Origin: a virus
IMG/VR virus record: IMGVR_UViG_3300022752_005600
Location: 1-21,288 of that record
Direction: 5' to 3' (one strand)
Length of the DNA: 21,288 nt
Below the pieces are notes generated by a model, which made no database searches, was not told the origin of the DNA, and saw only the letters and a list, made by a program, of their open reading frames with translations. Positions within the stretch are counted from its first letter, which is position 1, and each line of letters starts with the position of its first letter. The translations under genes were made by a program, and so were the position numbers. Shown here one piece after another: positions 1 through 21,288 of the stretch.

Positions 1-127
1 GAGGAGGACTTCCCCAATCAAAGCTACCACCAAAGTTTGCTGGCGGAGGACTTCCCCAATCAAAGCTACCACCAAAGTTTGCTGGAGGAGGTGTTCCCCA
101 ATCAAAGCTACCACCAAAGTTTGCTGG
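1..127. other. Left contig end repeat, identical to 289-415
   Basis: Bases 1-127 equal 289-415 exactly and differ at the next base (128 is C, 416 is A). Together with the right end this looks like a k=127 assembly graph end, not a biological boundary. Confidence 0.8.
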
Positions 128-566
128 CGGAGGACTTCCCCAATCAAAGCTACCACCAAAGTTTGCTGGAGGAGGTGTTCCCCAATCAAAGCTACCTGTA
201 ACGGGCGGAGGACTTCCCCAATCGAAGCTACCACCAAAGTTTGCTGGCGGAGGACTTCCCCAATCAAAGCTACCACCAAAGTTTACTGGAGGAGGACTTC
301 CCCAATCAAAGCTACCACCAAAGTTTGCTGGCGGAGGACTTCCCCAATCAAAGCTACCACCAAAGTTTGCTGGAGGAGGTGTTCCCCAATCAAAGCTACC
401 ACCAAAGTTTGCTGGAGGAGGTGTTCCCCAATCAAAGCTACCACCAAAGTTTGCTGGAGGAGGTGTTCCCCAATCAAAACTTCCACCAAAGTTTGCTGGA
501 GGAGGTGTTCCCCAATCAAAGCTACCTGTAACGGGCGGAGGACTTCCCCAAGTAAAACTTCCGGTA
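1..566 (-). repeat. 42-bp tandem repeat coding for ANFGGSFDWG(S/T)PPP
   Basis: About 13 FDWG units and one FTWG variant, each 42 bases (14 residues), all in frame with the adhesin gene. Units alternate between a Ser form (GSPPP) and a Thr form (GTPPP). A shorter 36-base unit reading VTG in place of ANFGG occurs at about 187-222, and a related VTG linker recurs near 517-540. The sequence around this linker is the same at 181-220 and 511-550 apart from the last bases, a spacing of 330 bases, so an eight-unit block appears to have been duplicated. Confidence 0.92.
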
Positions 567-2425
567 ACAATCGGAGCTGGACCAAATTTAAATTCTGTAT
601 TAACAACAGGAGCTGGACCAAATTTAAATGCCGTATTTACAACAGGAGCTGGACCAAATTTAAATGCCGTATTTACAACGGGAGCTGGACCAAATTTAAA
701 AACCCCACCAACAGCAGGTGCAGGACCAAATAAGATTAGAGTATCAACTGTTGGAGCAGGGCCAAATTTCAAATCCGCACTAATATTTGGAGCGGGACCA
801 AACTTTAGATCCGCACTAATATTTGGAGCGGGACCAAACTTTAGATCCGCACTAACATTTGGAGCAGGACCAAATTTCAAATCTGCACTAACATTTGGAG
901 CAGGACCAAATTTCAAATCTGAACTAACATTTGGAGCAGGACCAAATTTCAAATCTGAACTAATATTTGGAGCAGGGCCAAATTTCAAATCTGCACTAAC
1001 ATTTGGAGCAGGGCCAAATTTCAAATCCGCACTAATATTTGGAGCAGGGCCAAACTTTAGATCTGGACTTGATATTGTTGGTGCTGGGCCAAATTTTAGA
1101 TCTGCACTAATTAAAGGCGATGGGCCAAACTTTAGATCTGGACTTGATATTGTTGGTGCTGGGCCAAATTTTAGGTCCGCACTAACAAGAGGAGCAGGAC
1201 CAAATTTTAGGTCCGCACTAACAAGAGGAGCAGGACCAAATTTTAGATCTGGACTTGAAACTGTTGGAGCTGGGCCAAACTTTAGATCTGGACTTGATAT
1301 TATTGGAGCCGGTCCAAATGTAAAACTTCCTTGAGTAGGAACGCTAGGAGCTGGGCCAAATGTAAAACTTCCTTGAGTAGGAACGTTAGGAGCAGGACCA
1401 AACTTAAAGTCGCCTCCAAAATTAGTTGTAGGAGCAGGACCAAACTTAAAGTCGCCTCCAAAATTAGTCGCAGGAGCTGGACCAAATGTAAAACTTCCGT
1501 TAAAAGAAACTGGCTTTATTTCTATTTTTGGTATTGTTATTTCTGGAGGCGTTATTGATATGACTGGAGTGGTGAAGCTTGGAATTACATCTACTGTTGG
1601 TATAACTATTTGAGGTATATTAGGTATATCGGGGAAAATACAATCAAAACTTGGTATGTTGGGAAAAACAGGAGGAGGAGGAATTGGTATGATCGTTGGA
1701 ACAGTTGGAGTTGATTCTGGTATTGTTGAGGTTTTTCTTTTTATAGGAGTCTGAAGTACAGAGCAATCGTCGTTGCTCACGGTTACTATAGGGTCTATAG
1801 TTGAATTGGGAGCATATGTGTGAGATCCAGATTGTATAGATGTTGTAAATTGTCCATCTCCAAAATCCAATCTAAAATTAGTGTATGTTCCATTTATTAC
1901 AATAGTATAGTCTATTGTTGTTCCTTCGCAGACCAATGCGGGATTTTCTACTATTTCTAATACAACCTCAGGGCAAAGTTTGTCATCTGGGCACAGTGGC
2001 TGAGCTTCTAACTTTTCTATTTCATTTTCTAAATTAATTAGATAATCTTCTATCGACAAAACAACATCAACAATTTGATTGTGATGTTCAGCTATAACAT
2101 ATCCTCTAACCCAAGACCCCTCTGAATTAAATTTTGTTTGTTTGCCTCCAATATTCCTTGCACATCTTTTCAACTTAAAAATTTTACCTGCAGAGTTTTT
2201 TTCTACTGAGTCGTAATAAAAAAGCTCTCCCGATAAATTTGCAAATCCATTATCAGCCCATTGTTCTTCTTCATTGTCTTTAACTGGTTCGATTTCTATT
2301 TCTTCCGACCAAGCGGGATTATTTTTTACTAGTTTTGCTTCACTTGTATTAAATACAAGAAACAATGTTCTGTTTGAATCTATACCCAAAGGGTATCTTG
2401 GTTGCGGAGGAAATCCTATTGCCAT
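1..2425 (-). CDS. Repeat-rich PKD adhesin / tail fibre protein, C-terminus off the left edge
   Basis: The minus frame opens at ATG 2425 (MAIGFPPQPR) and has no stop down to base 1, giving at least 808 residues. Residues about 1-140 match the N-terminal domain of the two upstream adhesin genes: G-x-L, then YY, an FK-x-L-x-R segment, GSW, and an AEHHN motif at 113-116 leading into a helix. A PKD-like domain follows, with LDFGDG at 186-191 and HTY at 202-204. A proline-rich stalk occupies about 236-305 (PPPP, many IP/TP pairs). From about residue 308 onward the protein is tandem repeats: about 25 units with FGPAP, then about 14 units with FDWG or FTWG and PPP. It starts 15 bases after the previous stop, with only a weak ribosome site. 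It is probably a surface-exposed fibre or adhesin attached to the baseplate; that role is inferred from architecture and position. No receptor-binding tip is visible, because the C-terminus is missing. Confidence 0.85.
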   Translation of the reverse strand, partial: MAIGFPPQPRYPLGIDSNRTLFLVFNTSEAKLVKNNPAWSEEIEIEPVKDNEEEQWADNGFANLSGELFYYDSVEKNSAGKIFKLKRCARNIGGKQTKFNSEGSWVRGYVIAEHHNQIVDVVLSIEDYLINLENEIEKLEAQPLCPDDKLCPEVVLEIVENPALVCEGTTIDYTIVINGTYTNFRLDFGDGQFTTSIQSGSHTYAPNSTIDPIVTVSNDDCSVLQTPIKRKTSTIPESTPTVPTIIPIPPPPVFPNIPSFDCIFPDIPNIPQIVIPTVDVIPSFTTPVISITPPEITIPKIEIKPVSFNGSFTFGPAPATNFGGDFKFGPAPTTNFGGDFKFGPAPNVPTQGSFTFGPAPSVPTQGSFTFGPAPIISSPDLKFGPAPTVSSPDLKFGPAPLVSADLKFGPAPLVSADLKFGPAPTISSPDLKFGPSPLISADLKFGPAPTISSPDLKFGPAPNISADLKFGPAPNVSADLKFGPAPNISSDLKFGPAPNVSSDLKFGPAPNVSADLKFGPAPNVSADLKFGPAPNISADLKFGPAPNISADLKFGPAPTVDTLILFGPAPAVGGVFKFGPAPVVNTAFKFGPAPVVNTAFKFGPAPVVNTEFKFGPAPIVTGSFTWGSPPPVTGSFDWGTPPPANFGGSFDWGTPPPANFGGSFDWGTPPPANFGGSFDWGTPPPANFGGSFDWGSPPPANFGGSFDWGSPPPVNFGGSFDWGSPPPANFGGSFDWGSPPPVTGSFDWGTPPPANFGGSFDWGSPPPANFGGSFDWGTPPPANFGGSFDWGSPPPANFGGSFDWGSPP
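567..1504 (-). repeat. 36-42-bp tandem repeat coding for FGPAP units
   Basis: About 25 units, each centred on (K/T)FGPAP, in frame with the adhesin gene. The spacer between motifs varies in class: 12-residue units of the type NISADLK, 13-residue units of the type TISSPDLK, 12-residue units of the type VVNTAFK, and 14-residue units of the types NVPTQGSFT and TTNFGGDFK. Neighbouring units are often of the same class, which points to local duplication. One unit reads FGPSP, near 1110-1125. Confidence 0.9.
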
Positions 2426-6520: not shown

Positions 6521-7063
6521 CTAGCAAATTTTAATTCCTAAAATAGACTTGAAATTTGCCCCTTTTTCTTTGGCATCTATAGCCCAAAAAATCCTAGATG
6601 TTTCTAATGGATTATCCGATAAATTTCCTACGGATTTGAAAAAATTTTTATTTATACAAAGTCCATTTAAAGTGCAGTTGTAAAAAGAATTATTTATTTT
6701 ACATGGATAGCCATTCATATTATATTCTATAATAAGCGGATAAACTATGTCTTTTTCACTATTAATCCACATCGAATATTTTTTTACTAGATTTTTACAA
6801 ATTCTTGATCCTTCCATTACTAAAACTGACCATTCTGTAGTGCTTTTTTCAAAACCTTTATTAATTAAAGAAGTAATAGTATTTCCGCTTTTATAAGTTG
6901 TACATATAAGCTTCATTTCTTTATAAGGATCTGGTTTTATAGACTTATTTGCAGAACAAATTATAGGTTCATTTGGATATTCATTCTTAATAGAACGGAT
7001 AGTGTTCTTTAGCCCTCCGATGTTTCCATCGAGGGATAATATTATAAATCCTAAATTTAACAT
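6521..7063 (-). CDS. Degenerate glycosyltransferase-like (GT-A/GT2) protein, 180 aa
   Basis: The start is placed at ATG 7063 (MLNLGFIIL), 8 bases after the upstream stop. A 15-residue N-terminal extension would only re-read the end of the previous gene in another frame. The first strand and helix (GFIILSLDGN, then NTIRSIKNEYP and the strand EPIICSAN) look like the nucleotide-binding start of a GT-A fold. The segment WSVLVMEGSRI sits where GT2 enzymes carry the metal-binding DxD, but no DxD is present. The later part (NGLCINKNFFKSVGNLSDN) resembles the acceptor-side region of GT2 proteins. At 180 residues it is shorter than normal GT2 enzymes (about 230-300). It may therefore be inactive, structural, or a metal-independent variant. 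Its place among virion genes suggests a role in tail-protein modification or a co-opted fold. The fold assignment is by eye only. Confidence 0.5.
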   Translation of the reverse strand: MLNLGFIILSLDGNIGGLKNTIRSIKNEYPNEPIICSANKSIKPDPYKEMKLICTTYKSGNTITSLINKGFEKSTTEWSVLVMEGSRICKNLVKKYSMWINSEKDIVYPLIIEYNMNGYPCKINNSFYNCTLNGLCINKNFFKSVGNLSDNPLETSRIFWAIDAKEKGANFKSILGIKIC

Positions 7064-7070
7064 AAAATAT

Positions 7071-7934
7071 TTATACTGGAATTGGCGGCGGCGGAAGGGA
7101 TTGATCAAAATCTATAACTACTAGATCGCCAGGAGATATTGCTGAATTTAATGAAAATTCTCCTGTAGAGGGACTTTCTGAGGCCACATAAAGTTCAACC
7201 CATTCTGAAGCTTCATTATTTGGCACATTAATAGAAGGATTTGGAACAAACTCTCCTGGAGAGTATATTCTCATTCCATTTACATACACTCTAAGAGACC
7301 CTTCAATATAAGGAGTATTAGTTGATGTGGTTATAAAATCTAAATAATTAGGCCCAGAAGGATTACTATGTGCAGGAAATATGCCGTAATTATGCCTGTG
7401 TGCAGCGTGTGCAGGAAAAGCAGAATGAATTCTAAGTATATCTGGAGCTTGAAAATCAAAGATTACAGTATCAGAGCCTTTTAGTCTTAAGGTTCCGCTA
7501 GTAAGAGTAACATACTCAGGAGTTGTTGATATTGAAGATATTGTAGCGGAAATTGGAATCATATCTTCAATTTCTATATAAAGCTTATTAGCTTCTGATT
7601 GAATTAAAGATAACTTGTCTCTTTCATCTGCTGTCATTCTTACATAATCTATTCCTTCGTAGTTTCCATCTTCGTGTGCCCCTATATTATGCAAGCAGGC
7701 GTTAACCGCTTCGTATTTTAAATGCCCATTATCTTCCAAAGCGACAGACAATCTATTATTTAGAGAGCCTACTGTCCCACATGATGCTCTAAGTATTTGT
7801 GAGTTTATATCAACTTGAGCATTTACTAAGTCAATTCTAGTTAATATATTTTTTAATGGCAAATTATCATAATGAACATGATATGGTTGATTACCATCGT
7901 ATAATACTTCTGTTATTTTATTAATTTCTGGCAT
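7071..7934 (-). CDS. Baseplate/tail virion protein with histidine cluster, 287 aa
   Basis: ATG at 7934 follows AAAAGG at a good distance and overlaps the end of the SET gene by 14 bases. Residues 1-100 contain YHVHYDNLPL near 18-27, a helix-rich region, and a LHNIGAHEDG motif at 81-90 followed by DYVRMTADERDKL. I recognise this last style of segment from tail and baseplate proteins of marine T4-like phages, by general resemblance. A histidine-rich patch (AHAAHRHNYG and FPAHS) lies at about 175-190. The C-terminal 100 residues are beta-rich (GSLRVYVNGMRI), consistent with a fibre or sandwich domain, and the protein ends in PPPPIPV. It is probably a structural protein linking the baseplate wedge to the adhesins. 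Its exact role is unknown. Confidence 0.65.
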   Translation of the reverse strand: MPEINKITEVLYDGNQPYHVHYDNLPLKNILTRIDLVNAQVDINSQILRASCGTVGSLNNRLSVALEDNGHLKYEAVNACLHNIGAHEDGNYEGIDYVRMTADERDKLSLIQSEANKLYIEIEDMIPISATISSISTTPEYVTLTSGTLRLKGSDTVIFDFQAPDILRIHSAFPAHAAHRHNYGIFPAHSNPSGPNYLDFITTSTNTPYIEGSLRVYVNGMRIYSPGEFVPNPSINVPNNEASEWVELYVASESPSTGEFSLNSAISPGDLVVIDFDQSLPPPPIPV

Positions 7935-8379
7935 TTTTACCTTTTAATTCTTTTAAATTATATAGTTCCAGATCTAAAAACATTTGCCAAGCTAATTCTT
8001 CACTTAATTTTTTGTTCCACTTTTCTCCGTAATTTCCCAATATTTCTTGGTCTTTTTTTACTTTTTTAATAAAATAATAAATAGTAGAATCTTTTGCGTA
8101 TCTAATTTCTACATTTTGTAAATTTTTATCATCTGTGTGATTGACCATCCCCGCAAAACCAGTCGGAACTATATAAAACTTTGGATCGGGCAATGCGAAT
8201 TTGTAATCATTGGCATATCTTGTGCAAATATCAGCCAAAGAGTCTTTTTCCACTTTGAAGCCAATTACTTCTAAAATTTCTCCTTCGTTTATATCTGTAG
8301 ATGCAAAAACGCCCATTCCGGCATTTTCTATAAGCGAATCTTTAAGATAAAATCTTTTGTCTTTTTCTTCTATTATCAT
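7921..8379 (-). CDS. SET-domain protein, putative protein-lysine methyltransferase, 152 aa
   Basis: SET proteins transfer a methyl group from S-adenosylmethionine to lysine side chains. Three landmarks of the fold appear in order. The first is G21-M-G23-V-F-A with DINEGE at 29-34 (the opening GxG and the Ile-x-x-Gly-Glu turn). The second is N80-H81 followed by N86, matching the NHS/C-x-x-P-N pseudoknot strand. The third is E112-I-L-G-N-Y117-G118, matching the E-(I/L)-x-x-(D/N)-Y-G catalytic-tyrosine motif. The spacing fits a minimal SET domain of about 110 residues, as in chlorovirus vSET, with a short helical tail. There are no pre-SET cysteines. The start at 8379 has GAGGG just upstream and its ATGA overlaps the preceding stop; its own end overlaps the next gene by 14 bases, so it is translationally coupled on both sides. 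The substrate is unknown; virion or host proteins are both possible. Activity is inferred from motifs only. Confidence 0.8.
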   Translation of the reverse strand: MIIEEKDKRFYLKDSLIENAGMGVFASTDINEGEILEVIGFKVEKDSLADICTRYANDYKFALPDPKFYIVPTGFAGMVNHTDDKNLQNVEIRYAKDSTIYYFIKKVKKDQEILGNYGEKWNKKLSEELAWQMFLDLELYNLKELKGKNARN

Positions 8380-8726
8380 TTTCCCTCTTCAAGAGTATTA
8401 TGTATAGAACTATAATTTTGTCTTATTGTTAGAGATTTTTGTTGATCTTCTTTGTTTTCTAATTCATTTGGACAAAATTCTATATGGCCCGATCTTAAAC
8501 TCTCCAAGACATCCCTAATTGTTATTTTTCTATTTAAACAAGACTCTAAGCAGTCCAATAAAAACATTCTTATGTTGGCGTTTATTTCTTTAAGCTCAGC
8601 CTTATCTTTTATTTTCTTAATTTTTTCTATAGCTTCTTCTTCTATGTTCCAATCGAACAATTGATTGTCTATAAAAATAGCATTTTTTCCTTCGTATCTT
8701 CTTATTTCAAATGGTATTTTTTGCAT
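8376..8726 (-). CDS. Small helical protein of unknown function, 116 aa
   Basis: The start is set at ATG 8726 (MQKIPFEIRRYEG), two bases after the upstream TGA. The longer reading begins with TTG inside the previous gene. The N-terminal 35 residues look like a small beta unit (IPFEIRRY, NAIFIDNQLFDW), followed by two acidic/basic helices (EEEAIEKIKKIKDKAEL and NIRMFLLDCLESC) and a short tail. It has no signal or membrane segment. It sits between a conserved tail protein and the SET gene and ends in an ATGA coupling with the SET gene. It may be a baseplate assembly factor or a SET partner; neither is supported beyond position. Confidence 0.65.
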   Translation of the reverse strand: MQKIPFEIRRYEGKNAIFIDNQLFDWNIEEEAIEKIKKIKDKAELKEINANIRMFLLDCLESCLNRKITIRDVLESLRSGHIEFCPNELENKEDQQKSLTIRQNYSSIHNTLEEGK

Positions 8727-8728
8727 AA

Positions 8729-9223
8729 TCAGATAAAAGACAATCTCCAATTCCAAGTTATTTGCATCTGGGAGGTTTTGGAAATCCCAGCAAAAGTTGC
8801 CATGCTATAAAAATCTCCGCTATTTAATTTAAGAGCCATTTCATTTAATGTAAAATCATTACCTTCATTAAACGGTATGACAGAAGTAAAAATTACTTGT
8901 GTGGAATTATTAGGATCTATATTCGAAATTACAGGACGTATTACTCTAGCCGATCCAAAAAGGCCATTTCTATCATCAGATACTATTTTAGGGACGCCAG
9001 TTGTCCCCCCGGTATTAATTATGGCTCCGCCATCTCCAAATATCATTTGGCTTATAAAAAAGTCAAAATCATTTCCTATTTGATTTGCAAGACACAATGC
9101 TAGAGCAGAGCGTCCTGTTCTGAGTATTGTATTATTAAATTTTATTACATCTTTTGTTCCATTTTTATATTCAATGAAACCTTCAATAGTTCCCTTGCAT
9201 GCTGAATTTTCTAAATAACTCAT
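8729..9223 (-). CDS. Conserved tail/baseplate virion protein, 164 aa
   Basis: ATG at 9223 overlaps the preceding stop (ATGA), with GAGGAA about 9 bases upstream. The protein is mostly beta. It opens with IEGFIEYKNGTKDVIKFNN (a strand-turn-strand), continues with TGRSALALCLANQIG (a helix) and ISQMIFGDGGA, and ends in a long beta part (TQVIFTSVIPF, LNEMALKLNSGDFYSMATF, QITWNWRLSF). The FGDGG and LNEM...YSMATF segments recall proteins found after the gpI-like wedge gene in T4-like marine phages, and fibre-adaptor proteins of the P2 type. It likely attaches fibres or caps the wedge. There is no enzyme motif. The family was recognised by resemblance only. Confidence 0.6.
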   Translation of the reverse strand: MSYLENSACKGTIEGFIEYKNGTKDVIKFNNTILRTGRSALALCLANQIGNDFDFFISQMIFGDGGAIINTGGTTGVPKIVSDDRNGLFGSARVIRPVISNIDPNNSTQVIFTSVIPFNEGNDFTLNEMALKLNSGDFYSMATFAGISKTSQMQITWNWRLSFI

Positions 9224-12200
9224 GTTTCTTTTTCCTCTATTCTTCCGTCTTTATATTCTATTTTGAAATTAATTTTTTCTTGCTGTTCTGAACTATCTAA
9301 AACCTGAGTTCCAGAGTTAAGAACTTTAGCCAACATAGAATTTCCCATTTCTATTTTATTTGTTATTACTTCATTGTTTGAACGATTCATTTGATCAAAT
9401 GTATGTCCTGGATTTGGAGGATATTTTTGTTCTGAAATAATTAACTCTTGTGGAGAAAATTGATAAATTGAAAATTCTACCGAATCAGTTGGCCAACTTC
9501 CCGTAGTGGTCCAGTCCGTATTGGGCCCAGCCAAAGATATAATAGTGCCGTCAATATCTAAAATTGAATAATATTGAGAATTTATAGAAATTAAATAATT
9601 TTCTTTAAATTCTGCTGATTTTGTCTTTATCAAGGAGCCATTTTTGCCATTTTGTATTGGCAAATATGTCTCATAATTTATTGGAGAAGTATCTAAAATT
9701 AATCCTTCATAATCTAATTGTCCCAAACAATTTTCAACAATTCTTCTGTAAATTATTATGTCTACTCCTCCAACACTAGGAGATTGATAATCTTCAATGT
9801 AAAATTGATAAGGATTTACAAAAGATTTAATCTTATATTGATTAGAATCATAGAATAAATAATCTCCAATTTTTGCGTAATTTCTAATGTCATCAATTGG
9901 CATAGACTCAGACGCAGGATTTATATCGACTAATCCATCTTCTGAAATTTCAACTCCTGATTGAGAATATATTTTATTAGAAATTCTATATTCGAATTGA
10001 GATTTGTCTAAAGGTTCTAACACTTCTCCACTAACAATTTCAAATGAACCTTTAGAAACATTAGATACGCTATATAAACCTGCATGGTAATGATTGAATA
10101 TTTCTAATAAATTAGAATTATTTAATGGATTTGAATTTTCTATTGTACTTATGTTTATATTATTATTAATAAATCCACTTGATTTATTTCTAAAGTTTGA
10201 ATTTTGCATGTCATCAATCGAACTCAAACTTGGAGAATATAATTTTATAGATTTATTTCTTCCAACTCCTACACCACCTCCTGTTGTTCTTTCGCTCATC
10301 AAACTTAGCAAGTTTCTTTTTATGTTTTGAAAGCCTTGATAAACTGGCTCCCCATTTTCATCAAAAACCAGCTGACCGTCTTCGTCTTTTACTTGGTAAT
10401 TTCTTATTATTGCCCTGTTGAAGATGTGCTGAGCCTCTCCCGATATTAGAGTTTCTTGTCCAAAAATTGAAACTAATATTGACACATCTTCTATTGGAGA
10501 TTTTATAAATTCATTTATTGAGCCCAAGAAATTTATTGAATGTATTATTGAATGAAAAGGAACAAATTCTTCTATTATTTGTTTTGATTCAAATATTCTG
10601 TCATTTGAAAGATTTTCTATTTCTAGATCGATATTCAATTTAGCGGACTGACATTGGCTGCAAGGATCAATAAATTTTTTGTCTATATCGCAAGGCTTAA
10701 AGCTGTCACGAGTTGAACCATTATACTCTTCCATGTTGTATATGTTTTCACTATAAGGAAATTCTGTTCTAATCCTGCCCCAGACAACAGGGTCTTGTAT
10801 TGGGTGTCTTATTGGTATTATCAAATCAAAAAGAGGATCGTCTTCGTCTATGACCCGCGTATTCCAGTTTTTAACTGGATACTCTTGTTGTCTTTCGTCT
10901 CTTTGATCAAATAATTCTAAATTTCTTATATACTGATCCAATATTTGTTCTTGTTCATTTGGCATTTCTTTGAATTGATACAAAATTCGAATAGAATCCC
11001 CTGGAGCAAGACTTACGGGATTCTCGGAAAGTTGATGGCCTTGCCAAATTATGTAATAATCTGTTCCGTCTTGTTCTAAAGAAATATAATTTATATTTAG
11101 AGAAACCCAATCAGAAGAATACTCTGAATTTTTTGGTCTGTAATATATTTCAAAATTATTTTCATCTATGGGGGTAATTATATTTTTAGACAAAAGAAAA
11201 ACATTAGAGTCGGTGACTGTAAAAGATTCTTGATGTGTATATTTGGATAAAACTTGCCATAATTTTCCAATTCTTAGAAGCTGTATTCCAGCATCAGCCA
11301 AGGCGGTTTTCAAACCATCTTTTGTTCCTTTTTTCTTGAAATTAGGAATTGCCTTTTTTATTTGCCTTCTCCATAGAATAGGATCATTAGATTTTAATTT
11401 TAAGTTAAATAAATTGGACAATAAAGGCAATAATTGCTCTTGTGTAGAATTAGAGTCTAATAAATCAATTATTTGATTCGCTAAATCTTCTATAAAAGTA
11501 AAACCCTTAGCCACAGATCCGTTTAGTTCCTGAAGAACATACGGGGTTAGATCTCCATCTGATATGAAGTTTTTAAACATATCAGGAAGATATTTTTCTA
11601 ATAAAATTTCATATTTATTTTCTTTTGTAAAGTGAGTTGGTATTGAATTGTTTAGTTTTGGGTCGCCAAGCAGTCTAAAAGTCATATGAGCAGAAAGACT
11701 ATTTCCTGCCAAGTTTGGAGTCCAATTCCAACATATAAAATAATCTCCTTCTCTTAGTCCAATAGGACTCCAATCTAGCGTGAAAGAACCCTCAGAAACT
11801 TCTGCTAAAGAATTTTCAGAATTAACTTTTTGGGATAGTTCTGTTGGCACAAGATCTGGATTTAACCAAGCGGGAAACAACTCTCCAGCCTCGTCAACAT
11901 ATCCTCCAAAAACTTTAATTGGATCTGCTTCTTTAAAGAAAAAAGAAGATGTAGTTTTTGAATTTTCTAAATCCAATTTCACAGAGTTTAATTTGGATAA
12001 ATTATCTTGATTAGGATTTGAACAAACTTCAATTTTTAAATTTTCATATTTTTCTTTTTTAGATTTATCGTAAATAACATTTGCGTATTCAGAAACAGTA
12101 GAATCTGTGAAATCTCTTGAAACAAAGTATATTGTTACTTTATTTATTTTATATGGAGTTTTAGGACAACCAGATGAGTCTGTTGTTTTTATTTCAAATC

Positions 12201-12252
12201 TTAATTGATCTGTTATTTTAATGTCTTGATCTATTCCTACTGTTTTTAACAT
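9220..12252 (-). CDS. Baseplate wedge protein with gpI-like domain (gp7-like position), 1010 aa
   Basis: ATG at 12252 lies 7 bases after AGGA. Residues 1-200 are beta-rich and Ig-like (LRFEIKTTD, EGDYFICWNWTPN, HMTFRLLGD). Residues about 205-335 match the phage tail protein I fold: a helical region with YLPDMFKNF, then LLPLLSNLFNL, WRRQIKKAIPNFKKKGT at 294-310 and DGLKTALADAG. The K-x-G-T-x-x-G-L motif is the family hallmark. The remaining 670 residues are mixed beta with no recognised domain and a Ser/Asn-rich stretch in the middle. It follows the gp6/gpJ-like gene, the same order as gpJ-gpI in P2 and gp6-gp7 in T4. It should be part of the baseplate wedge that links the core to the fibres. 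At 1010 residues it is far longer than P2 gpI and close to T4 gp7. Confidence 0.78.
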   Translation of the reverse strand: MLKTVGIDQDIKITDQLRFEIKTTDSSGCPKTPYKINKVTIYFVSRDFTDSTVSEYANVIYDKSKKEKYENLKIEVCSNPNQDNLSKLNSVKLDLENSKTTSSFFFKEADPIKVFGGYVDEAGELFPAWLNPDLVPTELSQKVNSENSLAEVSEGSFTLDWSPIGLREGDYFICWNWTPNLAGNSLSAHMTFRLLGDPKLNNSIPTHFTKENKYEILLEKYLPDMFKNFISDGDLTPYVLQELNGSVAKGFTFIEDLANQIIDLLDSNSTQEQLLPLLSNLFNLKLKSNDPILWRRQIKKAIPNFKKKGTKDGLKTALADAGIQLLRIGKLWQVLSKYTHQESFTVTDSNVFLLSKNIITPIDENNFEIYYRPKNSEYSSDWVSLNINYISLEQDGTDYYIIWQGHQLSENPVSLAPGDSIRILYQFKEMPNEQEQILDQYIRNLELFDQRDERQQEYPVKNWNTRVIDEDDPLFDLIIPIRHPIQDPVVWGRIRTEFPYSENIYNMEEYNGSTRDSFKPCDIDKKFIDPCSQCQSAKLNIDLEIENLSNDRIFESKQIIEEFVPFHSIIHSINFLGSINEFIKSPIEDVSILVSIFGQETLISGEAQHIFNRAIIRNYQVKDEDGQLVFDENGEPVYQGFQNIKRNLLSLMSERTTGGGVGVGRNKSIKLYSPSLSSIDDMQNSNFRNKSSGFINNNINISTIENSNPLNNSNLLEIFNHYHAGLYSVSNVSKGSFEIVSGEVLEPLDKSQFEYRISNKIYSQSGVEISEDGLVDINPASESMPIDDIRNYAKIGDYLFYDSNQYKIKSFVNPYQFYIEDYQSPSVGGVDIIIYRRIVENCLGQLDYEGLILDTSPINYETYLPIQNGKNGSLIKTKSAEFKENYLISINSQYYSILDIDGTIISLAGPNTDWTTTGSWPTDSVEFSIYQFSPQELIISEQKYPPNPGHTFDQMNRSNNEVITNKIEMGNSMLAKVLNSGTQVLDSSEQQEKINFKIEYKDGRIEEKET

Positions 12253-12259
12253 TTTTTTC

Positions 12260-13837
12260 CTATGAATACATAAATGAAATGTTTATATCATTTGGCCTTA
12301 TAATTTCGTAGTACTTAGCAGTCACAAGAGAACCTGAATTTTTTTCGTCATTTGTAGTAAAGACTATATCTATTCCTTGAACTTCTTTCACAGCAGACAA
12401 ATATTTTGAAATATCAGATTCTCTTAAGTTTTGTCCGAAATCCCAATTATTTAAGCTAAAAAATTCTTCTACTTTAGATTGAATTTTTTGTTTTATTTCT
12501 TGTTCAAATTTTTTATTTATTCTAAATAATGTTGCTTCTATTGAAACGTCAACTTCTATTATTTGACCGTCTTTTATGCATATAAAGTCTGTTAGCATCT
12601 TTTTTTCTTCAATAAAATTTGCCAAATCCATTTTCAACTCATCAGAAGCTTCTTGAAGATAAAAATTAGAATCTTGTTTGGCCAATATATAAATATCAAC
12701 AACATTTCCGGCACAACCATGGTTTCTAAGAATGGCTGTTGATTTCCCTATTTGACCGTGATAAGCAGTATAAAATTGATCTGTTAGAGTTTTATAATCA
12801 TCGCCTGTAACTGCTCTGTTTTGCGTTCTCAAATATACAGGCAATTTTCTTCTAATGTCTTCTATTGTATCTCCATTATATCCGTACTCTCCTTTTGTAT
12901 AGTTTCTTAAAAATACAGGAATATTAAAAGGAGTTCCAAAAACCCCAGCTTGTCTTTGAGCCTCAACAAATCCTGTTACTATGTTTCCTCTGGTGCCTCC
13001 TCCAACTCTATATGTAATCTCTATTACGGATCCATTTGAAGGGCTAAGTCCTGCTCTATTATTTCCAAACATTACGTAAGATCTGTATTCTGAATCAAAT
13101 TCTACTCTATATTCTTTTCTTGGTTGAGAATCAGTGAAATAATCCACTTGGTCCCAAATTACTCCATCTATTCTAACGGTTATAGAATCGTATATTACTG
13201 ATGCGAATCTAGTTGGATAAGATTGTAAAATCTGTCCATTTCCAGAATAAGTGTCTACTATGGTCTTTCCTTCAAGCCCAATAATTGAAGAATTAACAGA
13301 AGATCCTGCTGGTATTATTATGTCTTGATCAAATATTGGATTGTTGTCAGCATCTGCTGGGAATAATTCTATTGTAATTGCCTCTCCATTAGATGCCACT
13401 TCTAATGCTATCGGAGCCGACAGAACTATGTCGCTATTCAAGGTGGTATTTAAGCTTGCTGTCCATAATGATCTAGACGGTATTGGCGGAGTGGGTTTAA
13501 ATCCTACTAGTTGAGAAAGCCTAAATGCATTGTCTGTTTCAGTTACTGTATCAATGAATAGCTCATTGACCATTTGGTCTATTTTGAATGATAATGTATC
13601 TGCGATGAACGCCCAGTTCTCCATTAGCATTATTGCTATGGAGCCTTCAACCAAATCATTAAATGTATTTGGTATTGTGTTGCCATTTTCACCAAATCTT
13701 TCATTAATAAAATCTACTAATTTATTTTTAAGAGACCAAAAATCTTGATTTGTATAATTTAAGTTGGGTACTTTTTCGTTTTTAATTAATGAAGATTTGT
13801 TAAAAGGGTTTATTTCAAATGGGCAATTTTCTTGCAT
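12260..13837 (-). CDS. Baseplate wedge protein, gp6/gpJ-like (baseplate J family), 525 aa
   Basis: ATG at 13837 follows GGAGGA by 5 bases; the ribosome site is formed by the last codons of the gp25-like gene. The N-terminus has NYTNQDFW and helices up to about 110 (SIAIMLMENWAFIADTLSF). A central beta region contains YVMFGNNRAGLSPS near 254-267 and TYRVGGGTRGNI near 275-286. The C-terminal part carries the family motif around RAVTGDDYKTLT at 341-352, followed by a helical/beta domain. Together these are typical of the baseplate J-like/gp6 family, which forms the ring of the baseplate and triggers sheath contraction. The gp25-like gene directly upstream and the gpI-like gene downstream agree with this. 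Confidence 0.87.
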   Translation of the reverse strand: MQENCPFEINPFNKSSLIKNEKVPNLNYTNQDFWSLKNKLVDFINERFGENGNTIPNTFNDLVEGSIAIMLMENWAFIADTLSFKIDQMVNELFIDTVTETDNAFRLSQLVGFKPTPPIPSRSLWTASLNTTLNSDIVLSAPIALEVASNGEAITIELFPADADNNPIFDQDIIIPAGSSVNSSIIGLEGKTIVDTYSGNGQILQSYPTRFASVIYDSITVRIDGVIWDQVDYFTDSQPRKEYRVEFDSEYRSYVMFGNNRAGLSPSNGSVIEITYRVGGGTRGNIVTGFVEAQRQAGVFGTPFNIPVFLRNYTKGEYGYNGDTIEDIRRKLPVYLRTQNRAVTGDDYKTLTDQFYTAYHGQIGKSTAILRNHGCAGNVVDIYILAKQDSNFYLQEASDELKMDLANFIEEKKMLTDFICIKDGQIIEVDVSIEATLFRINKKFEQEIKQKIQSKVEEFFSLNNWDFGQNLRESDISKYLSAVKEVQGIDIVFTTNDEKNSGSLVTAKYYEIIRPNDINISFMYS

Positions 13838-13838
13838 T

Positions 13839-14258
13839 TTATCCTCCGATAGGAATTTCTAATTTTAATTCTTCTAATTTTTGAATATCTTCAAAGTTCG
13901 TAAATAATATTCTTATTAATAGAATGTGTTGAGTGTATTGTTTGGCATCTTCCCGATTCAAATAGTTATTCACCTCAGAGCCATTTATAACTTCAATTTC
14001 TTGAACCGCTATTCTAGGCTCCCAAACAGCTATTGAATCTGCTATCGTTTGTCTTACTTGACTAATAACACTAGGATCATTTGGTTCGAAAAAATATTTT
14101 CTTAGCGGGGTCCCAAATTCAGGCAACATTACCCGTTCTCCAGGCTCAGTTAGCAAAAGAATCAATAAATCAGATTTTATCTGATCTATATCTGTTTGGG
14201 TTCTAAAAAATCCCATTGGATGTCTAGTTATTGGATAAGGTGCTCCTAAAAAACTCAT
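13839..14258 (-). CDS. gp25-like baseplate wedge protein, 139 aa
   Basis: The length is typical for the GPW/gp25 family. The hallmark region is present: a helix with IKSDLLILLLTEPGERVMLPEFG (E38-P-G-E-R and L45-P-E-F-G), then LRKYFFEPND, then a helix (VRQTIADSIAVWEPRI) leading to a strand with EIEV. The E-P-G-E-R motif is the one conserved from T4 gp25 to T6SS TssE, where it docks the sheath to the wedge. ATG at 14258 follows GGAGAG, and its ATGA overlaps the spike gene stop. It sits between spike and gp6-like genes, as in extracellular injection systems and many myoviruses. Confidence 0.92.
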   Translation of the reverse strand: MSFLGAPYPITRHPMGFFRTQTDIDQIKSDLLILLLTEPGERVMLPEFGTPLRKYFFEPNDPSVISQVRQTIADSIAVWEPRIAVQEIEVINGSEVNNYLNREDAKQYTQHILLIRILFTNFEDIQKLEELKLEIPIGG

Positions 14259-18811: not shown

Positions 18812-21288
18812 TCATGTTTCACCGTTGTTTATTATCGATCTGTTTGGAGTTCCTGCAACTTTTCCATATTTCATTTTTCCAAAAGTAGCAGAGTGCATAG
18901 GTCTTCTAGGATCTCTAGTAGACCCCGCTTCTGCTCCTGAAGACCCAGATAAGTTATATCCTCCTCCTCTAGGTTTCATTAGAGCAACAAGCTCTTGAAT
19001 TCCTTCTCTAATTTGTTCAAGCTCATCAATTTGCTTATAGGAAACTTCCTCGATTCTTGATAGTTCATCACTTTGTAATTTCCCTGAAGCAGGTTGATTA
19101 GCCGCCTTCTCTCTTAATATAGTTTGTGTAATATCTCTTAAGTGAATTGGCTGAACTTCGTTAGTAGGCTTATTCGCATCAGTAGCTTCTACTTCCGATG
19201 GTCTTGCCATTGGGATGGCTTGTTTTTCTATTATTAATTTATTATTTAATACATTATTAACAATTTTTTCTATTTGCTCTTCTGGTGTTTTTGGTGTTTC
19301 CTTAGCTGCAAATGTTGATTTCAAACCACCTAATAAACTAGATCCAATAGACTTTAGTCCCTCCCAAGCAGACGACCCGGCAGATTTAATTCCAGACCAT
19401 AACCCCGATCCTGCACCCTTAATGCCGTCCCATACAGAAGATAATGCTCCTCCTATTAAATTTCCTCCTTTTGAAAGTTTGTCTCCTATCCACTTAGCTC
19501 CATCCCAAGTTTTTTCTCCTATCCATTTAGCACCACCTAAAATTGTTGATCCAAATATGTCAATTCCTGTAGATAAAACAGGGCCTATAAGTGGCACGGA
19601 CCCGGCTATTCCACTTGCCAAATTAGTTAGTGCTCCTCCAACATCTCCTTTTATGAGAGAAGCAATTGCAAATCCTGCTCCTGCAACTGCCCCTACGAAT
19701 GGAAGTTTTTTCATAAGACTTTTCCCGCCAGAAAGCCCTAATTTAGATACCAAATTACCGGCCTTTCCAAACAAATTGCCCAATATTCCAGATCCTTTAT
19801 TTATACTTGAAGCTACTTTTGGACCAACATCACTTGAGGCTCCAAATAAATTGCCAATAATTCCTTTTCCTTTGTCTAATATTTTAGATCCAATTGAAGT
19901 TGCTTTTCCAACTACAGATTTTCCTAGTCCTTTTGTTCCTTCCCATGCTTTAGAAGCTAAATTCATAACGGATTGACCAAGTCCTTTTCCTTTCTTCCAT
20001 ATACTAGATCCAATATTCAATATTGATTCTCCAAGATATTTTGCTCCACTAAAAGCTTTAGAAGAAATCCATTTGGATCCTTGTGCTACTGAGTTGCCTA
20101 GTGACTTGGCGCCATTCCATACTGTAGAAACATAATTTGCATACGCCTTGCCCGCCCATTTAGCACTATCTAGAGCTTGAGAGCCTATTGATTTAGCTCC
20201 ATCCCAAGTTTTAGATCCTATCCATTTAGCACCCTCTAGAGCTTTAGATCCTAGTGATTTGGCTCCACTCCATACTGTAGAGGCATAATTTGCATAAGCC
20301 CCACCTAAAGATTTCGCGCCATTCCATATTGTTGATCCTAATGATTTAGCTCCATCTAAAGTTTTAGTTCCTAGTGATTTAGCACCTTCCCATGCTTTAG
20401 AACCTATCCATTTAGCACCATCTATAGTTTTGGTTCCTAGTGATTTAGCACCTTCCCATGCTTTAGAACTTATCAGTTTGGCTCCATCTAGAGTTTTAGA
20501 TCCTAGTGACTTTGCGCCTTCCCATGCTTTAGAACTTATCAATTTGGCTCCATCTAAAGCTTTAGAACCTAAGGATGCAGCTCCGTCAATTAAACTTTTT
20601 CCAAATAAATCTATACCTGTTGACAGTACAGGCCCAATTCCTGGAATGGCTCCTGCTATTCCGCTTGCTAAATTAGTTAAGGCTCCGCTTACATCTCCAG
20701 ATATCAAAGAAGATATTGCTCCTACGCCTCCAGCTATTGCTCCTATTCCTGGAATTTTTTTCATTATCCCCATGCTAGCACCACTAAGCCCTGCATTTGC
20801 TATTAGTCCTCCTGCTTTTCCTAGAAGACCGCCTCCTGCATTTGCTATTAGTCCTCCTGCTTTTCCTAGAAGACCACCTCCTGCATTTGCTATTAGTCCT
20901 CCTGCTTTTCCTAGAAGACCACCTCCTGCATTTGCTATTAGTCCTCCTGCTTTTCCTAGAAGACCGCCTCCTGCATTTGGCATCAAGTTCTTACCAAATT
21001 CAAATGCTTTACTGGCGTAACCAGCTATAGTTGGTGCCAAACTCTTACCAAATTCAAATGCTTTACTGGCGTAACCAGCTATAGTTGGTGCTAAACTCTT
21101 ACTAAATTCAAACGCCTTACCAGCATATCCAGCTATAGTTGGTGCCAGACTCTTACTGAACTCAAATGCTTTACTGGCGTAACCAGCTATAGTTGGTGCT
21201 AAACTCTTACTAAATTCAAACGCCTTACCAGCATATCCAGCTATAGTTGGTGCCAGACTCTTACTGAACTCAAATGCTTTACTGGCGT
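18812..21288 (-). CDS. Tail tape measure protein, C-terminal part, N-terminus off the right edge
   Basis: The frame is open from base 21288 to the TGA at 18812, at least 824 residues. An apparent start at 21040 is only a TTG in the middle of a repeat and is not the real start. From N to C the protein has 18-residue units (APTIAGYA-type with FEF), four 15-residue Gly-rich units (NAGGGLLGKAGGLIA), a hydrophobic Gly/Ile segment, about 20 eleven-residue units (SLGSKAWEGAK type, with Trp at a fixed place), a second copy of the hydrophobic segment, more eleven-residue units, and a hydrophilic tail with a helix near the end (IEEVSYKQIDELEQIREGI). Helical repeats of 11 and 18 residues with fixed Trp/Phe are typical of tape measure proteins, which set tail length inside the tube. 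The gene lies just upstream of the tube adaptor, as expected. Confidence 0.82.
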   Translation of the reverse strand, partial: ASKAFEFSKSLAPTIAGYAGKAFEFSKSLAPTIAGYASKAFEFSKSLAPTIAGYAGKAFEFSKSLAPTIAGYASKAFEFGKSLAPTIAGYASKAFEFGKNLMPNAGGGLLGKAGGLIANAGGGLLGKAGGLIANAGGGLLGKAGGLIANAGGGLLGKAGGLIANAGLSGASMGIMKKIPGIGAIAGGVGAISSLISGDVSGALTNLASGIAGAIPGIGPVLSTGIDLFGKSLIDGAASLGSKALDGAKLISSKAWEGAKSLGSKTLDGAKLISSKAWEGAKSLGTKTIDGAKWIGSKAWEGAKSLGTKTLDGAKSLGSTIWNGAKSLGGAYANYASTVWSGAKSLGSKALEGAKWIGSKTWDGAKSIGSQALDSAKWAGKAYANYVSTVWNGAKSLGNSVAQGSKWISSKAFSGAKYLGESILNIGSSIWKKGKGLGQSVMNLASKAWEGTKGLGKSVVGKATSIGSKILDKGKGIIGNLFGASSDVGPKVASSINKGSGILGNLFGKAGNLVSKLGLSGGKSLMKKLPFVGAVAGAGFAIASLIKGDVGGALTNLASGIAGSVPLIGPVLSTGIDIFGSTILGGAKWIGEKTWDGAKWIGDKLSKGGNLIGGALSSVWDGIKGAGSGLWSGIKSAGSSAWEGLKSIGSSLLGGLKSTFAAKETPKTPEEQIEKIVNNVLNNKLIIEKQAIPMARPSEVEATDANKPTNEVQPIHLRDITQTILREKAANQPASGKLQSDELSRIEEVSYKQIDELEQIREGIQELVALMKPRGGGYNLSGSSGAEAGSTRDPRRPMHSATFGKMKYGKVAGTPNRSIINNGET
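19300..20583 (-). repeat. 11-residue (33-bp) Trp-bearing helical repeats in the tape measure
   Basis: About 20 units of the type SLGSKAWEGAK, WIGSKTWDGAK and LISSKALDGAK lie at about 19870-20583, with some 18-residue insertions such as GGAYANYASTVWSGAK. A second smaller group (WIGEKTWDGAK and similar) lies at about 19300-19550, after the second hydrophobic segment. An 11-residue unit equals three helical turns, which gives a straight hydrophobic stripe. Confidence 0.85.
19530..19745 (-). repeat. Second copy of a duplicated hydrophobic segment in the tape measure
   Basis: This segment (LGLSGGKSLMKKLP through SGIAGSVPLIGPVLSTGIDIFG) matches about 20583-20795 (GLSGASMGIMKKIP through SGIAGAIPGIGPVLSTGIDLFG). 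The stretch GDV(S/G)GALTNLASGIAG is nearly the same in both. The DNA is also clearly similar, for instance the TTTTTTCAT end and the GCCAAATTAGTTA region. It is likely a membrane-active or pore-like segment delivered on ejection. Confidence 0.85.
20583..20795 (-). repeat. First copy of a duplicated hydrophobic segment in the tape measure
   Basis: This is the partner of 19530-19745. It contains two Gly/Ala/Ile stretches (IPGIGAIAGGVGAISSLI and LTNLASGIAGAIPGIG) that could form transmembrane helices, parted by a short polar GDVSGA turn. Confidence 0.85.
20790..20969 (-). repeat. Four 45-bp repeats coding for NAGGGLLGKAGGLIA
   Basis: Units at 20790-20834, 20835-20879, 20880-20924 and 20925-20969 differ by only a base or two, and a partial fifth unit follows. 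They are 15 residues long and glycine-rich, and sit between the 18-residue units and the first hydrophobic segment. Confidence 0.93.
20985..21288 (-). repeat. 54-bp repeats (18 residues) forming a 108-bp higher-order unit
   Basis: More than five units of APTIAGYA(S/G)KAFEF(S/G)KSL. Two subtypes (Ser and Gly forms with different codons) alternate, so the true period at the right is 108 bases: 21073-21180 and 21181-21288 are identical. The array continues past the edge. Confidence 0.95.
21162..21288. other. Right contig end repeat, identical to 21054-21180
   Basis: The last 127 bases equal 21054-21180 exactly; the base before differs (21053 is T, 21161 is C). The identity length is the same as at the left end. 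Confidence 0.8.

Follow-up and report, generated by a model that had tools for sequence, protein, structure and literature searches.

The window analysed here, a 21,288-bp stretch that makes up one whole IMG/VR viral record, carries a gene for a predicted SET-domain protein-lysine methyltransferase within a phage baseplate operon. Comparison with related loci identified the conserved unit as a two-gene cassette, in which SET is paired with a small partner gene (PART), and not as SET together with the baseplate genes. The cassette occurs in at least two unrelated genome places and is carried by about half of the baseplate operons that are otherwise collinear. The features of the window are listed in Table 1.

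Table 1. Features of the baseplate operon and of the PART-SET cassette, with positions in the window
Feature	Position	Strand	Basis
SET-domain protein-lysine methyltransferase, 152 aa (activity predicted)	7921..8379	-	Pfam PF00856; AF2/Foldseek fold; 28 viral homologues
GxG (G21-M22-G23), expected AdoMet-binding motif	8311..8319	-	G21 and G23 invariant in 28 homologues
NH (N80-H81), SET catalytic core	8137..8142	-	invariant in 28 homologues
NYG (N116-Y117-G118), predicted catalytic Tyr117	8026..8034	-	Y117 and G118 invariant in 28 homologues
C-terminal extension of SET, W..FL.L.LYNL..L, residues 131-145; proposed PART-docking segment	7945..7989	-	conserved where present
PART, 116 aa from ATG 8726 (126-aa ORF call starts at TTG 8756)	8376..8726	-	upstream of every complete C-extended family-A SET
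fibN, tail-collar fibre N-terminal protein; upstream edge of insertion site	8729..9223	-	Pfam PF12571, 31.4 bits (cut-off 23)
RBP287, 287 aa, no known family; downstream edge of insertion site	7071..7934	-	follows the insertion site in collinear operons, cassette present or absent
195-aa protein, glycosyltransferase-like by eye only	6521..7108	-	conserved in operon
Tail_P2_I-type baseplate protein	9220..12252	-	Pfam PF09684, 26.9 bits
Baseplate wedge protein, gp6/J type	12260..13837	-	PHROG 219, E 7e-33
Baseplate wedge gp25	13839..14258	-	Pfam PF04965, E 6.7e-19

A SET-domain protein encoded among baseplate genes

The initial annotation reported a SET gene at 7921-8379 with GxG, NH and NYG motifs at residues 21-23, 80-81 and 116-118. 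We found a 152-residue open reading frame at exactly this position on the minus strand, with all three motifs just where they had been placed; the opposite (plus) strand is full of stop codons. The Pfam SET profile (PF00856) matches residues 21-118 over its entire length (profile positions 1-105 of 105; 34.1 bits, E 3.8e-8), above the curated cut-off of 22.4 bits, and this was the sole SET match in the record. The same profile matches 27 of 28 non-redundant relatives (best E 8e-11). The NH motif and the catalytic tyrosine are retained by all 28 homologues, and an N-terminal block (D7, R9 and Y11) is likewise invariant among the 28 non-redundant proteins of the close family described below (family A). 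Pairwise dN/dS values for SET are 0.03-0.2 where dS is measurable, indicating purifying selection. The conserved motifs and low dN/dS show that the reading frame did not arise by chance.

An AlphaFold2 model of SET, built from 27 sequences, had a mean pLDDT of 84.7 and was least certain over the C-terminal 30 residues (blocks of 58-65, with the last block at 41). The LR756511 row was left out of the alignments used for folding both SET and PART. Among the 50 PDB matches listed by Foldseek, all are SET or PR domains, with E values from 5e-8. A comparison with the viral enzyme vSET, proposed in the initial annotation, gave a SET fold (3kma; TMt 0.76, about 23% identity over aligned columns), with the SET pseudoknot judged through the Foldseek matches and not by strand-by-strand tracing. 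The post-SET cysteine cluster (CxC...C) is absent: there are no cysteines beyond residue 118, and the protein instead ends in a W..FL.L.LYNL..L extension. By all sequence and fold features tested, the gene product belongs to the SET superfamily, with predicted methyltransferase activity. A predicted structure lacking the pseudoknot had been named as grounds for refutation, and the model, judged through the Foldseek matches, withstands that test. The SET observation is confirmed, and the interpretation that accompanied it is partly supported.

A tblastn search of 50,697 phage records found SET relatives in uncultured huge phages only. The closest named relative is encoded by LR756511.1 (595 kb, 38% identity), and more remote ones by LR756501 and LR756503 (735 kb). 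Searching IMG/VR with the single SET sequence returned zero relatives; a two-sequence profile reached 75 SET loci, more than half of which belong to family A. The only close relatives found in bacterial bins were L089, L090 and L091, on contigs of Planctomycetes and Chloroflexi metagenome-assembled genomes, and these lack PART. All relatives are metagenomic, and ORFs were called with a simple script. The contigs are mostly fragments, so the absence of a gene from one of them is weak evidence. Homology and synteny with relatives whose records span 341-595 kb suggest that the window is probably a fragment of a very large bacterial virus. In the open-paper literature we found neither a phage SET gene in a baseplate operon nor a phage SET linked to a partner, and the term SET is absent from a survey of jumbo phages (PMC7824862).

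The operon runs from the gp25 wedge gene through the gp6/J-type wedge, Tail_P2_I, fibN, PART, SET and RBP287 genes to genes for a 195-residue protein, a 231-residue protein and two PKD-domain proteins. The 195-residue protein had no match in Pfam, PHROGs or NCBIfam, and a receptor-binding role for RBP287 is a guess. A 4-nt overlap (ATGA) joins the PART stop to the SET start codon, and a 14-nt overlap joins the SET stop to the RBP287 start. SET had been described as coupled in this way to structural genes on both sides; the overlaps are real, and the upstream neighbour (8376-8756) is not recognisable as a structural gene. Elsewhere in the window, an open-ended ORF of at least 808 residues at 2-2425 (minus strand) includes short repeats in two blocks, of the FGPAPNVSADLK and FGGSFDWGTPPPAN types, probably encodes a repeat adhesin and gives rise to spurious plus-strand ORFs. 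The protein encoded at 18812-21040 (minus strand) is tape-measure-like, and its gene has tandem repeats of 33/66 bp and 45 bp.

PART is a new family that accompanies SET

The PART gene most likely starts at the ATG at 8726. Its product had no significant relative in Pfam, PHROGs, NCBIfam, PADLOC, the PDB or BFVD, and the PADLOC defence models gave no match up to an E value of 0.1. Searches for defence systems, tRNAs and Rfam families were also empty. The hallmarks of PART are an FDW motif and a C-terminal GxI, of which F and D are invariant, W is found in 21 of 23 sequences and G in 22 of 23. The AlphaFold2 model is confident (pLDDT 84.1), and pairwise dN/dS is 0.07-0.19 where dS is measurable. 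PART is thus a small family without a known family or fold, defined here for the first time.

We ran PART and SET HMMs on all loci and found PART upstream of every family-A SET that reaches its C-terminal end; the gap between the two genes could hold another gene in L017 and L241. At 95% redundancy, PART accompanies 34 of 39 SETs, and complete C-extended family-A SETs have it in 34 of 34 cases (both counts include two SETs cut by contig ends). The remaining five (L018, L049 and the bacterial-bin L089-L091) have neither an adjacent PART nor the C-terminal extension. L050, grouped with L049, likewise has no adjacent PART and no extension, and the more distant family-B phage SETs have neither PART nor the extension. 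Where the extension is present, F134 is found in 25 of 25 sequences, L139 and Y140 in 24 of 25 and W131 in 23 of 25; L135, L142 and L145 also belong to it, and the listed positions are mostly near-invariant. No remnant of it was found in the other frames of L018 and L049. The extension tracks adjacent PART, and this covariation suggests that it is a docking site for PART.

Some loci depart from the simple pairing. We considered that PART had been lost along with the extension in L049/L050 and dropped this idea, as a PART gene lies elsewhere in the L050 contig. Its neighbours resemble the surroundings of PART-SET in L026, and this gene order indicates that in L050 SET became unlinked from PART and that PART was not lost. 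Loss of both PART and the extension is seen in L018 only, on a 24.8-kb contig. In L120 (15858-17233), an ORF that fuses PART to a degenerate SET without NH is followed by an intact SET, and the fusion may be a decaying duplicate; a TnpB-like zinc-ribbon fragment, recognised by eye, lies ahead of it. T4-type late-promoter words were not found upstream of PART in non-baseplate loci or upstream of the gene that replaces PART in L049.

The cassette is accessory and changes genome place

A survey of where homologues lie had been suggested, along with the view that SET is fixed in the baseplate cluster. We scanned for the wedge protein, a retrieval independent of SET, and in 48 operons that span fibN to the next gene found both PART and SET in 18, neither in 30 and one alone in none. 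When these were pooled with loci selected through SET, a set that over-represents SET-positive operons, and reduced at 90% wedge identity, 22 of 40 operons had both genes, 17 had neither and one (L018) had SET only. The position between fibN and RBP287 thus recurs across a whole phage lineage, and the idea of a fixed location did not hold. In several SET-negative operons, fibN and RBP287 are separated by a few dozen bases. No family-A SET was found elsewhere on SET-negative contigs of 320, 340 and 527 kb, which indicates that the modification is dispensable. Where SET is missing, as in L135-L148 and L161, short inserts of another kind, about 100-1100 bp long, are often found in the slot, which may be an insertion hotspot.

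The cassette of LR756511 and its relatives lies away from the baseplate genes. LR756511 has the same baseplate operon order, with PART, SET and RBP287 missing there; its SET gene lies about 160 kb from the operon, after a homologue of the 126-residue ORF of the window and with a similar start/stop overlap. In LR756511 and L048/L051, the cassette lies between a helicase gene, which it precedes, and a gene that weakly matches the late sigma factor gp55 (PHROG 234; E 1.7e-4 for the LR756511 copy). In two further contexts, L054/L071 and L057/L058, a family-B phage SET comes immediately after a fibre-like gene, within a cluster of wedge or fibre genes. A tree of 36 SETs requires at least three shifts between baseplate and other contexts, at least two of which are forced by well-supported branches, and PART stays with SET through these changes. 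We conclude that the conserved unit is the PART-SET cassette.

PART paralogues pair with a lysine-epsilon-aminotransferase

Searches of whole contigs revealed a second group of PART-like proteins, PART2, in the LR756511, L051, L011 and L049 contigs and in the SET-less 527-kb contig. By hhalign, PART2 is a homologue of PART (probability 99.4%, E 1e-21). A gene for a lysine-epsilon-aminotransferase (LAT) begins 1 nt past the end of PART2 in LR756511 and the L051 contig. These LAT genes score 511-514 bits against TIGR03251, slightly below the equivalog cut-off of 520.8, and match Mycobacterium tuberculosis LAT (2cin) with an E value of 4e-110. A scan for LAT yielded 32 non-redundant phage loci, and in 18 of them PART2 precedes the enzyme gene in the same orientation, at a spacing of 12 nt or less or of about 320-520 nt. 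Such loci include L182 (5917-7447), L178 (6009-7524) and others in L183-L218. We found no earlier description of this pairing.

Of the other 14 LAT loci, those that were inspected mostly have aldehyde dehydrogenase and DDAH-like genes as neighbours. A phage operon of aldehyde dehydrogenase, DDAH-like and LAT genes was seen in L190, L193, L199-L206, L209, L219 and L221, several with a UDP-sugar dehydrogenase-like gene as well; L199 and L200 also have a SET-domain gene, located upstream of the DDAH-like one.

We think that PART serves lysine modification, mainly because the genes of its family accompany two enzymes with the lysine epsilon-amine as their site of action; this view is based on gene association. 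Some PART2 genes have no lysine-acting enzyme next to them, and a broader role for the family is possible. A broader hypothesis, which we regard as doubtful, is that PART proteins are a new adaptor or carrier family for lysine epsilon-amine modification in huge phages, in which PART would guide methylation by SET and its paralogue would guide LAT to transaminate a protein-bound lysine, yielding an aldehyde. If true, huge phages would own a modular set of lysine modifications for their own proteins.

Proposed function and candidate targets

Our preferred model, to which we give an even chance of being correct, is that PART-SET is an active lysine methyltransferase carried by huge phages as an accessory cassette, made late in the baseplate lineage and acting on a late phage protein. 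SET would be the AdoMet-dependent catalyst, and PART, encoded directly upstream and translationally coupled to it, would be its dedicated partner. PART probably docks on the C-terminal extension of SET and, once docked, probably presents or selects the substrate. The L120 fusion of PART to a degenerate SET is in line with such a partnership. Both proteins of the baseplate lineage would be produced late together with virion proteins. The target would be one or more lysines of a late phage protein, conjecturally and most likely a tail, fibre or adhesin protein, whose surface or assembly the methylation would alter. The operon position and two further settings in which SET adjoins wedge or fibre-like genes argue for a virion target; the other genome places, the dispensability of the cassette and the lack of a SET-linked lysine in neighbouring proteins argue against one.

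It is possible, though we lean against it, that SET methylates an adjacent baseplate or fibre protein and owes its place in the operon to this activity. The genes overlap, the slot between the fibre gene and RBP287 is kept in 22 of the 40 non-redundant operons, and other SET lineages adjoin fibre-like genes. However, 17 of the 40 collinear operons lack the cassette, other phages carry it elsewhere, and none of ten neighbouring baseplate proteins has a lysine that SET-positive operons retain and SET-negative ones have lost. RBP287 had no tblastn match in the phage records, including LR756511, yet LR756511 has SET.

A weaker candidate is an intracellular target, either a host protein or one of the phage's own proteins for transcription, replication or DNA packaging, whose methylation would favour infection. 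An accessory, mobile and conserved two-gene unit would suit such a role, as would the LR756511 and L048/L051 cassettes between the weak gp55 match and the helicase gene, and vSET provides a viral precedent for action on a host chromatin protein (PMC4023394). The commonest observed position of the cassette is nevertheless the baseplate operon, where late expression is expected. Nothing in the analysis pointed to delivery of the enzyme into the host, which the initial annotation had also raised.

The strict pairing of the two genes, and the pairing of PART paralogues with a different lysine epsilon-amine enzyme, could also mean that PART is itself the substrate and that methylated PART is the working product. 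We consider this improbable, as no lysine of PART is invariant and the best column has one in 14 of 23 sequences. Hitch-hiking of PART and SET on a mobile cassette without a joint function is very improbable: PART relatives do occur away from SET, and G035 has a PART gene with no SET beside it and a SET elsewhere, but the linkage survives context changes and deep divergence and the C-terminal extension tracks adjacent PART.

Comparison with known systems

We compared the predicted PART-SET methyltransferase with other SET proteins and lysine-modifying systems. The nearest counterpart in size and fold is vSET from Paramecium bursaria chlorella virus 1, also a small viral SET protein with the same predicted fold, and its target is lysine 27 of histone H3 (PMC4023394). 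The hosts of the phages described here, in contrast, are presumably bacteria without such histones, and the phage protein differs from vSET in most aligned columns, in its C-terminal extension and in its dedicated partner gene. vSET, too, is not known to carry a post-SET cysteine cluster. Family-B SETs, such as those of the 735-kb phage LR756501 and L003, are phage-encoded too, but they lack the N-terminal D.R(F/Y)Y block as well as the extension and PART. From a cultured phage, ORF62 of Stenotrophomonas phage Ps15 is a phage-encoded SET-domain protein mentioned as a passing annotation only (PMC9025141), and we liken it to our protein by its description. We found no described role for phage-encoded SET enzymes in the open-paper literature.

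The partnership with PART is analogous to that of SET catalytic subunits in complexes, such as MLL with RBBP5-ASH2L and EZH2 in PRC2. Both MLL and EZH2 are among the Foldseek matches of the SET model. Unlike the partners of these enzymes, PART is unrelated to any family searched, and its activation of SET is a conjecture. Methylation of surface lysines on an adhesive filament can matter, as illustrated by the flagellin lysine methylase FliB (PMC7181671), which is a [4Fe-4S] enzyme and not a SET protein (PMC8598068). The parallel with FliB, which concerns the lysines of an extracellular adhesive filament, is a functional conjecture. LysW, a small amino-group carrier protein that is paired with the class-III aminotransferase LysJ, ends in the motif EDWGE. 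The PART2-LAT pair resembles LysW/LysJ by analogy, but PART ends in GxIE or similar and PART2 in GWI, and no profile match was found.

With PART-SET there is a defined two-gene unit, a contrast between operons with and without it, and a partner protein open to testing, which brings the substrate and the purpose of protein-lysine methylation by phages within reach. The PART2-LAT pairing points to a wider, undescribed theme of lysine modification in very large phages.
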